Shown here: one piece after another, positions 5,004 to 15,597 of the stretch | Layout: each line of letters starts with the position of its first letter | How positions within the stretch are numbered: position 1 is the first letter of the stretch | IMG/VR virus record: IMGVR_UViG_3300010401_000058 | Coordinates: 1-38,335 of that record | Direction: 5' to 3' (one strand) | DNA: 38,335 nt | Origin: a virus | Notes under the pieces: generated by a model | Databases searched by the model: none | Told to the model about the DNA's origin: nothing | What the model saw: the letters and a program-made list of their open reading frames with translations, nothing else | Program-made: the position numbers and the translations under genes

Positions 5004-5577
5004 GCGCCCACGGGCGTCGTTCCCATTGCTGCTAAACGAGTGGAATCTTCTCGGGGAGGGCGTGGAGGTGGGCACGTGCCGGGGGCTTTTCGCGCAGAAC
5101 CTCCTCGAGTACTGGCCCGGCTATCTGCACTGTGTGGATGCCTGGGCGCCGTACGAAGAGCAGTACGACCACGAGGCCAACTACGTCGAGACGCTCGCGC
5201 GCCTGGCGCCCTACGAGAATCGCAACGCCATTCACCGCATAACCTCCCAGGAAGGCGCCAGACTGTTCGAGGACGGCACCCTGGACTTCGTGTACTTGGA
5301 TGCCAATCACGGCTACGAAGCCGTCAGGGACGATTTGATCGCCTGGTGGCCCAAGGTCAAATGCGGTGGCATGTTGGCCGGGGATGACTACGGTATCGTG
5401 GAGGAGCAATGGGTAGACTTCGGCCACGGCCGCGTGCGTTTTGGCGTCAAACGCGCGGTGGATGAGTGGTCGAAGAAGGTCGGCAAGAACATCTCGATCG
5501 ATATCCTGGCGGACTGGAAAAACCTGATCCCCGGTCAAGGGGAGCTCCAGGCACGGGGTTGGTACACGCTCAAGTGA
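4993..5577 (+). CDS. class I SAM-dependent methyltransferase (Methyltransf_24-like)
   Basis: A 194-residue protein starting at GTG 4993, eleven bases inside the HTH gene. In-frame sequence further upstream is the shadow of that HTH gene. The Rossmann methyltransferase signature is visible: GVEVGTCRGLFAQNLLEYWP (SAM-binding loop, residues 19-38), LHCVDAW (acidic strand 2), and DFVYLDANHGYEAVRDDLIA followed by WWPKVKCGGMLAGDDYG (motif IV-V). This layout fits the Methyltransf_24 group, often linked to sugar or small-molecule modification. It is directly followed by a glycosyltransferase in a GTGA overlap, so the pair probably works on one glycan. The substrate is unknown. Confidence 0.7.
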   Translation: MRYERPRASFPLLLNEWNLLGEGVEVGTCRGLFAQNLLEYWPGYLHCVDAWAPYEEQYDHEANYVETLARLAPYENRNAIHRITSQEGARLFEDGTLDFVYLDANHGYEAVRDDLIAWWPKVKCGGMLAGDDYGIVEEQWVDFGHGRVRFGVKRAVDEWSKKVGKNISIDILADWKNLIPGQGELQARGWYTLK

Positions 5578-11966: not shown

Positions 11967-12904
11967 GCACCACCGAAGAAGAAGTTGAGAAGACCACCGA
12001 AGAGAAGGTGCGCGAGGCGATCGACCGCCGCAACTCCGAGCGCCTGCAACTCATGGAGAATATCGCCGATGCCTCCGAGATGGGCCGCAAGGAGGACATC
12101 GAAGGCATCGACAAGGGCACACCAGATGAGGAGCAGCTGGCCGCTGAGTCTGCGGCACGCGCGCTCCAGGAAGAAGGATCCTCGACTGAAGTCAAGGGCG
12201 CCGAAGCTGAGGAAGGCGATACCCGGGTGATCGACGGGGTAACCTACTACCTGACGGTCGTCAACGGGCGCGAAAAGTGGCAAACGCTTAAGCAACTGCG
12301 CGAAACGGCCTCCAAAGTAGAGGCTGCGGACGAATATTTGCGAAACGCCAGCGAAGCTGCTAGAACGGCAGCACGCGAGGCTCTATCCCCTAAGGACGAG
12401 CCCTCGAGTCTCGAGGAAGACGAGGCGCGGAAACTCCTGGCCGCAGCCGCACTGGGAGATGAAGAAGCGATTGGCAGACTGGCACGGGCCATTACCGCAA
12501 AACCATCCGTGACCCCGGACGTTTTGCAGGCTCTCGATCAGCGCCTGTCGTTCAGGACCGAACTGGCTTCACTCGAAGCCGAGCAGAAGGATCTCCTGGA
12601 AGACCCGTATATGGGACGCTTGTTTCGGGCTCGACTGAACGAGCTCAAGCAGGAAGCCCCGAATACGAAGCTGGCAGACGCCTACCGAAGCATCGGTCAG
12701 GAGCTGAAAGCGGCCTTCCCGGGATACAAAGGCTCGGCGACTCAAAAGAAGCTGGAACGGAAACGAACACTCGTTCAGGTTCCGTCCGCCGCGACACGGC
12801 AACAGACGGATACCGAGGACGAGGGCGAGGAAGATCCTTCGGCCATCATCGAACGATTGGCCAAGGCACGCGGGGTGAGCCCGCATCTTCATCGCCGGCA
12901 GTAG
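11963..12904 (+). CDS. scaffolding protein
   Basis: A 313-residue, highly charged, almost wholly helical protein without Trp-rich or beta domains except near residues 90-103 (DGVTYYLTVVNG). It lies directly between portal and coat, the usual place for a scaffold. Long Glu/Lys/Ala helices (for example EKVREAIDRRNSERLQLMEN), Asp/Glu-rich linkers and a basic C-terminus (KARGVSPHLHRRQ) fit the class: scaffolds bind the coat with a basic C-terminal helix and leave the head before or during packaging. The stop is followed by the regulatory hairpins of the inserted endonuclease. Confidence 0.8.
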   Translation: MSTTEEEVEKTTEEKVREAIDRRNSERLQLMENIADASEMGRKEDIEGIDKGTPDEEQLAAESAARALQEEGSSTEVKGAEAEEGDTRVIDGVTYYLTVVNGREKWQTLKQLRETASKVEAADEYLRNASEAARTAAREALSPKDEPSSLEEDEARKLLAAAALGDEEAIGRLARAITAKPSVTPDVLQALDQRLSFRTELASLEAEQKDLLEDPYMGRLFRARLNELKQEAPNTKLADAYRSIGQELKAAFPGYKGSATQKKLERKRTLVQVPSAATRQQTDTEDEGEEDPSAIIERLAKARGVSPHLHRRQ

Positions 12905-12907
12905 CGC

Positions 12908-12935
12908 GGGAGTCCTTGCGACTCCCCACGGAGTC
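12908..12935 (+). promoter_or_regulatory. mutually exclusive hairpins over the endonuclease RBS
   Basis: GGGAGTC (12908-12914) can pair with GACTCCC (12920-12926) across a five-base loop. The same middle arm GACTCC (12920-12925) can instead pair with GGAGTC (12930-12935) across the loop CCAC. The second pairing hides GGAG at 12930-12933, the ribosome binding site five bases before the ATG at 12939. The two folds cannot exist together, so this is a possible translational switch. Both stems are perfect. Confidence 0.6.
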
Positions 12936-12938
12936 GGT

Positions 12939-13430
12939 ATGGCGGGTCAAGTCGAGCAGCCTCTTTACACCTACGTATTGAGAGCGCCTCTCACCAACGT
13001 CCCTATCTACGTAGGTAAGGGAGTCTGGGACCGTGCTTACAAGCATCGGTTTCAAGACAGCGCCATCGGATCGCACATCCGTGGCCTAGTATCTCAAGGT
13101 CTTTGTCCCTCATACGACCGTGTTCCAGTCAGGAACGCCGAAGAGGCGTTTGAGCTTGAAGCACTGCTAGTCGATGAGATCGGCCGCCGTGACATCGGCA
13201 CCGGCCCCTTGTTCAATCGCCGTCCCGGTGGACGCAAGGTAGTTCACACCGAGGAAGCGCTACGCAGAATCGTGGCCAGCCGAATCGGTAAACCCCTGTC
13301 CGAAGCTCACAAGGCTGCTGTGTCCAAGACTCTCTCGGGTCGGCAGCACTCAGACGCTTACAAAGCGCGTCATTCAGAGCGCATGCGTCAGTGGTGGGCA
13401 ATCCGCAAATCAACTCAGGTGGAGAACTAA
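12939..13430 (+). CDS. GIY-YIG homing endonuclease
   Basis: A 163-residue free-standing nuclease inserted between scaffold and coat genes. The GIY-YIG core is visible as YTYVL (residues 10-14), IYVGKG (23-28), the catalytic-type Arg in DRAYKH (about 32), a Glu in FELEALLVDEIG (about 74) and TGPLFNRRPGG. The C-terminal part, GKPLSEAHKAAVSKTLSGRQ and beyond, looks like a NUMOD3 DNA-binding repeat. It would cut related phage genomes and copy itself by recombination. The first residues MAGQV equal the first five of the coat protein. Its RBS can be hidden in a hairpin. Confidence 0.85.
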   Translation: MAGQVEQPLYTYVLRAPLTNVPIYVGKGVWDRAYKHRFQDSAIGSHIRGLVSQGLCPSYDRVPVRNAEEAFELEALLVDEIGRRDIGTGPLFNRRPGGRKVVHTEEALRRIVASRIGKPLSEAHKAAVSKTLSGRQHSDAYKARHSERMRQWWAIRKSTQVEN

Positions 13431-13432
13431 CC

Positions 13433-14404
13433 ATGGCCGGACAGGTGTGGGCCGTCAGCTCTCTCGGCGGATATCTCTACTCTCGGCAGCTCTCGAACGT
13501 TCTACGCATGAACGTTCAGCCACTGGTGAAATTCCGCCAGTTCGCCGACGTTCACGACATCTCCCAGCAAGGAAAAAAGAAGGGCGACACCTTCACGTGG
13601 GATGTCGTGTCGGATGTCGCGACCGCTGGCGGCGTGCTGCTCGAGACGAACACCCTGCCGGAGACGAACTTCACCATCACCCAGGGCACGCTGACCATCA
13701 CGGAAGCGGGTAACAGCGTTCCGTACTCCGGCAAGCTCGACAACCTGTCGAAGTTCCCGGTCGAAGACATCATCAAGAAAGCCCTGAAGAACGACACGGT
13801 CAAGTCCGTTGACAGACTCGCCTGGGGCCAGTTCAACCAGACGCTCCTTCGGGTGATCCCGACCGGTGGTACATCAGCTTCAGCCGTCACGCTGTACACC
13901 AACGGCACCGTCACCGGCACGAACTCCATCGCCTACTCGAACGCCCACGCCAAGGCGATCGTCGATGCGATGAAGGAGCGTAACATCCCCGCCTACATCG
14001 CGGACGACTACTACGCGATCGCGTGGCCCACGACGCTGCGCACCTTCAAGAACGCGCTGGAGGCGATTCACCAGTACAGCGACACGGGCTTCAACCTCAT
14101 CATGAATGGGGAGATTGGCCGCTACGAGAACACCCGCTACATTGAGCAGACCAACATCCCCAAGGGAACCGGCACCGATGGCGTGACCACGACACCGTGG
14201 ACCAACGGGCAAAGCGACTGGATCTTTTTCTTCGGCAACGACACGGTGGCTGAGGCCATCGCGGTACCGGAGGAGATGCGCGGCAAGATCCCGACTGATT
14301 ACGGACGGTCCAAGGGTATCGCGTGGTATTACCTCGGAGGATTCGGCATCGTGCACACGACCGCCATCAACGTGCGCATCGTCAAGTGGGATAGTGCCCT
14401 GTGA
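13433..14404 (+). CDS. major coat protein (N4-gp56/P22-like)
   Basis: A 323-residue protein. I chose ATG 13433 because a GGAG ribosome binding site precedes it and the upstream frame belongs to the endonuclease gene. Typical coat features: MAGQVWAVSSLGGYLYSRQL, the LVKFRQFADV segment, KKGDTFTWDVVSDVAT, and the strand-rich ITQGTLTITEAGNSVPYSGK with KLDNLSKF. I place it near the N4-gp56-like HK97-fold coat family; the exact family is a memory match. Hundreds of copies form the head. The order scaffold-nuclease-coat shows that the nuclease interrupted an otherwise standard arrangement. Confidence 0.8.
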   Translation: MAGQVWAVSSLGGYLYSRQLSNVLRMNVQPLVKFRQFADVHDISQQGKKKGDTFTWDVVSDVATAGGVLLETNTLPETNFTITQGTLTITEAGNSVPYSGKLDNLSKFPVEDIIKKALKNDTVKSVDRLAWGQFNQTLLRVIPTGGTSASAVTLYTNGTVTGTNSIAYSNAHAKAIVDAMKERNIPAYIADDYYAIAWPTTLRTFKNALEAIHQYSDTGFNLIMNGEIGRYENTRYIEQTNIPKGTGTDGVTTTPWTNGQSDWIFFFGNDTVAEAIAVPEEMRGKIPTDYGRSKGIAWYYLGGFGIVHTTAINVRIVKWDSAL

Positions 14405-14435
14405 GTGGTAAATTCACAGTGGGACATGATATGAT

Positions 14436-14457
14436 CTGTGGTGTTGAACCACAGGAG
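14436..14457 (+). promoter_or_regulatory. hairpin touching the HNH gene RBS
   Basis: CTGTGGT (14436-14442) pairs perfectly with ACCACAG (14448-14454) around GTTGA. The ribosome binding site AGGAG (14453-14457) overlaps the last two bases of the stem and lies seven bases before the ATG at 14465. This may limit translation of the HNH gene. Confidence 0.5.
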
Positions 14458-14464
14458 ATCACTC

Positions 14465-14971
14465 ATGTCAGCGCGAGACGAACGTCAGTTAGCAGCCTCA
14501 CGAGCCTGGAAGAAGGCCAATCCAGAGCGGCATGCCGAGTTAGCCCGTGCCTACCGGCTAAGAAACAAGGCCAAGACTCAAGCTCAGAATCTGTTGAACT
14601 ACGAGATTCGCTGCGGTCGTATGTCTCGTGGTCCGTGCGAGAAGTGCGGCACGACCGAGCGCGTGCATGCTCACCACGACGACTATCGGGAACCGTACAA
14701 CGTCCATTGGCTTTGCTACCTGTGTCACAAGGGGACTCATCCCGTCAGTTCCGAGGACAAGGAAGTGAAGTTCGAAGGAGCCAAGCGCGGCGATTTTCAC
14801 GGCGAGAGAAACAACGCTGCGAAGCTTTCGGAGCAAAAGATCGGTCAGATTCTCAAGCTACTCGACGAAGGTCTGCTGAGCCAAGCACAAATAGGTTTGG
14901 CGTTCGGCGTTACTCAGACAACCATCAGCCGGATAAAACGTCGGCAGACTTGGACTCATAGGAACCCGTAA
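14465..14971 (+). CDS. HNH homing endonuclease with C-terminal HTH
   Basis: A 168-residue protein between coat and decoration genes. The start at ATG 14465 has an AGGAG ribosome binding site. The HNH/zinc core is clear: CEKCG (Cys58, Cys61), HAHHDDYREPYNVHWLC with the His-His-Asp active strand (70-72), and CYLCHKGTH (Cys84, Cys87, His92). The last 60 residues have an HTH-type region (LSEQKIGQILKLLDEGLLSQ, then IGLAFGVTQTTISRIK) for site recognition. It is likely a free-standing mobile nuclease. Its TAA overlaps the next ATG by one base, so its insertion is neat. Confidence 0.85.
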   Translation: MSARDERQLAASRAWKKANPERHAELARAYRLRNKAKTQAQNLLNYEIRCGRMSRGPCEKCGTTERVHAHHDDYREPYNVHWLCYLCHKGTHPVSSEDKEVKFEGAKRGDFHGERNNAAKLSEQKIGQILKLLDEGLLSQAQIGLAFGVTQTTISRIKRRQTWTHRNP

Positions 14972-15597
14972 TGACTACACAGAACCAAGGCAGCGGCAAC
15001 ACCGTCACCCGAACGCTGGCGTACGACGATCCGTCCTATATCACGCGCCAGAGCGCCTCCTTGGGGACGATCACCGGCTCCGGCGGTACGTCCACGACCA
15101 AGTTCACCGCGTTCACCCAGCTGACCATCTTCGGGGTGACCTTCTTCCCGACCGTGCTGGGCAGCTCCACCTACACGGTCAACGGTACGGCCACGACCTC
15201 CGCCCAGTCGGCCTACTGTGTGTTCATCACCAACACCAATACCACGGGAACCGCGATCTCTCTCGCCACCACCACGGTGGGCGGCATCTCCACAGGCCCG
15301 TTCTACGTGGCGGGCACCGGCTCCATGGGCACGAACGTGAACGTCCCCGGTCAAGGTGGCGTGGGTGGCTACTCGAAGTACGCCATCAACACACTCGGCG
15401 GCACGAACACCACCATGCCGTGGGGCACGGTCACGTACAGCTCCGGTTATGCCGGCGGCAATGCCGCCGGCGTCGGTGGTCTTTACATGAACCCCGGCGA
15501 TCAGTTCTATGTGGTGGCGGGAACCGATGCCACCGGAACGGCCTCTCACATCCTCGAGTACCAGATCGGAGCGCCCACGGGCGTACTCCTGGCGTAA
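14971..15597 (+). CDS. head decoration/cement-type protein, copy A
   Basis: A 208-residue Gly/Thr/Ser-rich beta protein just after the coat gene (and the HNH insert). It shares the motif DDPSYITRQS and NTNTTGTAI with the next gene, together with a similar end (DQFYVVAGTDATGTASH), so the two are tandem paralogs. Small beta proteins in this spot usually decorate or cement the capsid. A tail-surface role is also possible. Extra Gly-rich loops between residues 105 and 155 make this copy longer than its neighbour. Confidence 0.6.
   Translation: MTTQNQGSGNTVTRTLAYDDPSYITRQSASLGTITGSGGTSTTKFTAFTQLTIFGVTFFPTVLGSSTYTVNGTATTSAQSAYCVFITNTNTTGTAISLATTTVGGISTGPFYVAGTGSMGTNVNVPGQGGVGGYSKYAINTLGGTNTTMPWGTVTYSSGYAGGNAAGVGGLYMNPGDQFYVVAGTDATGTASHILEYQIGAPTGVLLA

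Follow-up and report, generated by a model that had tools for sequence, protein, structure and literature searches.

Why should an endonuclease gene and the coat gene behind it begin with the same five residues? The question is raised by a 38,335-base virus record (IMG/VR IMGVR_UViG_3300010401_000058; the window, meaning the whole stretch of DNA analysed), in which an open reading frame (ORF) for a putative GIY-YIG homing endonuclease stands directly before the gene for the major coat protein, with both translating to MAGQV at their N-termini (ATGGCGGGTCAAGTC at 12939-12953 and ATGGCCGGACAGGTG at 13433-13447). All four codons after ATG differ, each in the third base only, as a sequence-only reading of the window had noticed; taken alone this difference is unremarkable, as most of these codons often vary between any two coats of the family. 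That reading had proposed that the nuclease inserted at the start of the coat gene, kept the original start for itself and brought along a recoded copy. Comparison of genomes with and without the nuclease demonstrates, at the level of sequence, an insertion at the coat start with capture of the leader, a duplicated start, a sharp-ended replacement tract and empty counterparts. The features of the locus are listed below, where numbers preceded by L are our handles for related contigs.

12902..12938, plus strand: original coat-gene leader, now driving the nuclease (BLAST matches of L001 and L002 run unbroken through the leader into 12953)
12939..12953, plus strand: first 15 nucleotides of the nuclease ORF, the original coat start (MAGQV; 15/15 against the coat start of L002)
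12939..13430, plus strand: GIY-YIG homing-type endonuclease ORF, 163 residues (PHROG 314, profile and Foldseek matches)
12963-13178, plus strand: catalytic-type domain, nuclease residues about 9-80
13287-13349, plus strand: NUMOD3-like segment, nuclease residues 117-137, below cut-off
13421..13424, plus strand: GGAG, the new ribosome site of the coat gene, in the final codons of the nuclease and 8 nt 5' of the coat ATG
13433..13456, plus strand: replacement (recoded) coat codons 1-8 (3rd of 153 coats for synonymous anomaly over codons 2-8)
13433..14404, plus strand: major coat (capsid) protein, 323 residues (PHROG 1357 major head protein, E 3e-19)

The nuclease ORF is separate from the coat ORF, with its own stop 2 nt 5' of the coat ATG, and the coat ORF is complete, its product sharing about 53% identity with the protein annotated as major capsid protein in Escherichia phage PTXU04. 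No intron is indicated, as Rfam gave no match in window positions 12500-15100. The leader begins at the stop of an upstream scaffold-like gene and carries a GGAG ribosome site at 12930-12933, and most close relatives that lack the nuclease have GGAG(TC) at the corresponding position ahead of the coat gene.

Nuclease-free relatives identify the ancestral start

We collected 80 close coat relatives from IMG/VR by protein similarity and a further set through a degenerate start pattern. All 150 distinct nuclease-free coats begin MAG[QL][VI]W; the start-pattern survey admitted only these residues, and the set gathered by protein similarity agrees. Since the coats of Escherichia coli and Vibrio isolate phages likewise begin MAGQ[LV]W, MAGQV can be assigned to the coat family as its fixed N-terminus, and not to the nuclease family. 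At the DNA level, the first 15 nucleotides of the window nuclease match the coat start exactly in three of these empty relatives and to within one mismatch in 33 of the 150, whereas the window's own coat 15-mer lies 3-5 mismatches from 141 of them.

The three identical starts include that of the closest relative, L002, which lacks the nuclease and encodes a coat protein 98% identical to that of the window. Its coat gene starts ATGGCGGGTCAAGTC, and the leader upstream also aligns to the window leader ahead of the nuclease. When L001 and L002 were compared with the window by BLAST, their coat start matched twice, at 12939-12953 and from 13431/13432 on. The identity at 15 of 15 positions, the aligned leader and the double match together indicate that the ancestral coat start now opens the nuclease ORF and that the coat gene has a second one. 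On this comparison we regard it as confirmed that the nuclease captured the old coat start and that the coat gene carries a replacement. The expectation that nuclease-free coats would begin MAGQV, in DNA matching the nuclease's version, was thus borne out.

The same site is occupied in four lineages

Related nucleases, 48-58% identical to that of the window, occupy the same site in three other lineages (L015/L024/L061, L017 and L087/L089), the first of which is one sequence across three contigs. Because identical junctions recur among contigs assembled separately, three in one lineage and two in another, assembly error is unlikely. The homologous nucleases begin MLGVSVKQP, LLGSSIAQP and MFQIVEQP, none with MAGQV, and retention of the first five coat codons is therefore particular to the window. 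All four lineages share the takeover of the coat leader. In each, GGAG lies in the last nuclease codons 6-8 nt 5' of the coat start, and 1-2 nt separate this start from the nuclease stop. Identity between the nucleases does not run parallel to identity of the upstream gene (53% for the nuclease and 38% for the scaffold between the window and L087; 58% for both between the window and L024), a pattern that fits horizontal movement without proving it.

Wider surveys added no carriers. The motif TGGTGG combined with the coat start pattern retrieved 49 viral contigs, mostly with non-nuclease leaders or unrelated, and no further carrier lineage; a pattern scan of GTDB genomes gave chance matches only, with no coat sequence 3' of the start; and the INPHARED isolate phages held no match to the nuclease.

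Near-identical phages with and without the nuclease

Two of the three other carrier lineages have near-identical empty partners. Between L087 and its empty partner L198, 790 of 800 positions upstream to the ATG are identical, a 499-nt insert follows, and identity after it is 97.4%. Their coat genes show five synonymous changes in codons 2-8 and then 131 unchanged nucleotides, a clustering (5/6 versus 20/251 degenerate codons) that is unlikely by chance (Fisher p 3e-5). Between L015 and L014 there are 22 synonymous differences, all within coat nucleotides 6-63, with the protein identical and no difference in the next 2,139 nt; upstream, 47 nt are identical, and where L015 has the nuclease stretch L014 has a stub of 51 nt. 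The replaced tracts are sharply bounded, at 24 nt and 63 nt respectively, as in co-conversion of flanking sequence. As a null, 31 empty-empty pairs less than 6% diverged show 0-1 differences in their first 24 nt, whereas all four carrier-empty pairs show five, these four comparisons amounting to two independent events. The proposal that a recoded start was brought along with the nuclease is upheld by both pairs, in which the two travel together.

L198 and L002 present a clean empty allele at the same site, and no nuclease was found elsewhere in the empty contigs tested, which are partial and include these two. The stub in L014 (48-103) contains a 16-codon ORF (MESEKFVPNQLVGKVS) at the nuclease site of L015/L024, and the coat gene there starts with GTG; the stub is possibly the remnant of an earlier insert.

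The inserted gene resembles GIY-YIG homing endonucleases

The window nuclease matches the PHROG 314 homing endonuclease family (E 1e-8), and a profile built from the four homologues gives a weak match to a GIY-YIG chain in the PDB (9u75, E 0.017). The top 13 Foldseek matches are all GIY-YIG structures (E 0.014-0.13), obtained with a low-confidence model (pLDDT 53). Pfam returned no GIY-YIG match for the window nuclease, only a sub-threshold NUMOD3. The motif itself can be read in the window as YTYVL ... IYVGKG, and Y12, Y24, G26, R32, E74 and N93 are invariant in the four homologues, residues that we take to correspond to the catalytic residues of I-TevI.

A route by which the nuclease would move

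We consider it very likely that a free-standing GIY-YIG homing endonuclease resides at the coat start, captures the leader and moves together with a new ribosome site and a donor coat start. The target would lie in the phage coat gene, at its conserved opening codons. During co-infection the nuclease would cut an empty coat gene near these codons, and repair of the break would copy in the nuclease together with the adjoining donor coat start. The mobile unit would thus comprise the nuclease ORF, the new ribosome site in its last codons and about 24-63 nt of donor-derived coat start. At the left junction the recipient leader (in the window, with 15 coding nucleotides) would stay ahead of the nuclease, and the right junction would fall 24-63 nt into the coat gene, which would be restarted from the donor-derived copy with the same residues in different codons. 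These codon differences and the split target would spare carriers from cutting. We infer both the origin of the tract by gene conversion after a cut and this sparing of carriers from the sequence arrangement. In the window, the in-frame joint reads CAAGTC/GAGCAG, where L087 has CAAATTGTCGAGCAA, and is compatible with a short microhomology joint.

If the enzyme spares its own gene, it must need sequence 3' of nt 15, because the window nuclease gene holds the native 15 nucleotides; with the shortest replaced tract reaching only to nt 24, a target at about nt 12-24 in the coat gene is probable. A cut site around the fifth to tenth codon, as the sequence-only reading had predicted, would fit codons 2-8, where the recoded tracts overlap.

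Several points weigh against this reconstruction. The GIY-YIG assignment draws on weak-to-moderate matches, with the Pfam family absent and the model of low confidence, and cutting of the coat start is deduced from the sequences. The window has no known near-identical empty relative, its nearest coat being 85% identical in DNA, and the 3' end of its replaced tract cannot be placed from the window. L014, with its stub, may be a former carrier instead of a virgin empty site. There are only four independent carrier lineages, and their common CAG codons (below) may have been inherited along with the cassette from a common ancestor. L012 and L013 have a similar coat start with no nuclease.

Recoding as protection or as a by-product of conversion

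The Gln4 codon is CAG in all four carrier lineages as against 16 of the 150 empty coats. For synonymous excess in codons 2-8, a measure that sets them apart, the carriers rank 1, 3, 4 and 7 of 153 coats; when DNA divergence of the head was compared with that of the body over 63 nt, they ranked 1, 7, 9 and 38 of 76 and were not all separated. In L024, 16 of 19 synonymous codons of the tract are changed (99th percentile), and the nearest of the 153 coat starts is still 16 mismatches away; the donor was not found among them.

Protection of carriers from self-cutting by this recoding is plausible. Co-conversion from a divergent donor would give the same pattern. A neutral account, in which the codon differences arose by ordinary drift in the donor and protect nothing, keeps every step of the route above save its last inferred one, and we give it a little less than an even chance. 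Both tract length (24 and 63 nt) and codons vary between lineages, synonymous differences this large occur between distant empty coats (median 0.53 of codons), and fungal mitochondria are known to show raised polymorphism beside mobile introns (PMC5378118). The shared CAG codon and the extreme, donorless tract of L024 are what it accommodates least well.

The stronger counterpart would be a natural home-and-rescue drive, in which selection keeps the rescue start recoded and so blocks both cutting of carriers and crossover between the nuclease and the coat start during repair. We advance this tentatively, as somewhat less probable than neutral conversion. If it is true, empty coats of the L012/L013 type would act as functional resistance alleles or be scars left by past carriage.

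The coat starts of these two contigs (L012 747-810; L013 4001-4064) have the cassette-like codons GCC GGT CAG GTG TGG GCA and rank 2nd of 153 for synonymous excess; they could be a scar or a resistant allele.

Loss, regulation and coincidence

A two-way difference is formally ambiguous in polarity, and recombination with an ordinary phage might have removed the nuclease from the empty genomes, a reading for which the stub ORF at the site in L014 could speak. The codons argue otherwise: the L198 start consists of native codons common to L073 and many wider relatives, whereas that of L087 is unique, and consensus codons number 5 of 20 in the L024 start against 12 of 20 in that of L014. We judge this reverse direction unlikely, and the link between the nuclease and the replaced start would hold whichever way the change went.

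The nuclease might instead be a regulator of coat expression that benefits the phage and is not mobile, given that a stop 2 nt before the coat ATG and a coat ribosome site inside the nuclease ORF imply coupled translation. Its patchy occurrence, in 4 of about 150 lineages and in one of two near-identical phages, makes such a role very improbable. That two N-termini came to share MAGQV by coincidence or functional convergence is hardly credible even for a match of five residues, being refuted by the empty relatives, whose closest coat start is identical in DNA and contiguous with a matching leader, and at odds with homologous nucleases that lack MAGQV.

Surroundings of the locus

Many relatives have strong predicted hairpins with GGAGTC/GACTCC-type arms immediately 5' of the coat start, as does the window at 12908-12938. 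A hairpin sequestering the ribosome site before the coat gene was considered and dropped, pairing of the site being no higher than in shuffled leaders. A second endonuclease gene flanks the coat gene on its other side and lies outside the start capture:

14465..14971, plus strand: HNH-type endonuclease ORF directly 3' of the coat gene (PHROG 2340 endonuclease, E 4e-20)

In the string TAATG, the stop of this ORF and the start of the gene behind it overlap. The ORF is absent from L001, L004 and L008, where the next gene stands close behind the coat gene. Short HNH-like remnants, read from the sequence, lie behind the coat gene in L017 (about 5030-5110) and L009 (about 1905-1950), for example SYDPSDWYNVKWLCVVCHELEHG*, and look as if the position held by the HNH gene in the window had once been occupied there and had decayed.

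Discussion

The nearest described arrangement is that of mobile ORFs that replace the C-termini of genes in fungal mitochondria, first in Allomyces atp6 and then in atp6, atp9, cox2 and nad3 of Glomus sp., where native and inserted ends differ in DNA, the inserted ones being 64-81% identical to the relative, yet retain 94-100% identity in protein (PMC3630166). Those systems likewise combine a free-standing homing endonuclease ORF in a coding gene with a divergent, largely synonymous copy of the end that it displaces and the native end beside it, and an insert with a divergent synonymous gene end is what we found in L015/L014 (22 differences in 63 nt). They differ in that the C-terminus is replaced there and the N-terminus of a phage coat gene here, and in that the native start in the window is re-used as the nuclease's own. 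The phage case can thus be described as their N-terminal counterpart.

Among phages, the Mob and Seg nucleases of T4 are intronless and show co-conversion (PMC2988022). SegG and SegB, GIY-YIG endonucleases of T-even phages, resemble the window nuclease in being intronless and intergenic with co-conversion of flanks, and differ in cutting away from the nuclease insertion site; the searched passages describe no replacement of a neighbour's start. MobE overlaps nrdA in T4 in a manner suggestive of translational coupling, but follows its gene, whereas the window nuclease precedes the coat gene and takes its start (PMC2988022 for MobE). In the open-access literature searched, we found no phage case of N-terminal start capture. 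Engineered home-and-rescue gene drives are alike in that a nuclease targets an essential gene and the cassette rescues the target; they are engineered CRISPR systems in Drosophila (e.g. PMC7968924), in contrast to a natural GIY-YIG nuclease in a phage. The locus thereby offers a natural comparison for engineered rescue drives.

Near-identical occupied and empty pairs make the cut site, the immunity codons and drive testable with short DNA substrates. For annotation, the locus is a warning that a nuclease start may carry the ancestral N-terminus of its neighbour. For the biology of these phages, it illustrates a way for an intronless selfish gene to occupy the start of an essential, highly conserved gene and leave it unbroken, through capture of the start and its synonymous replacement.
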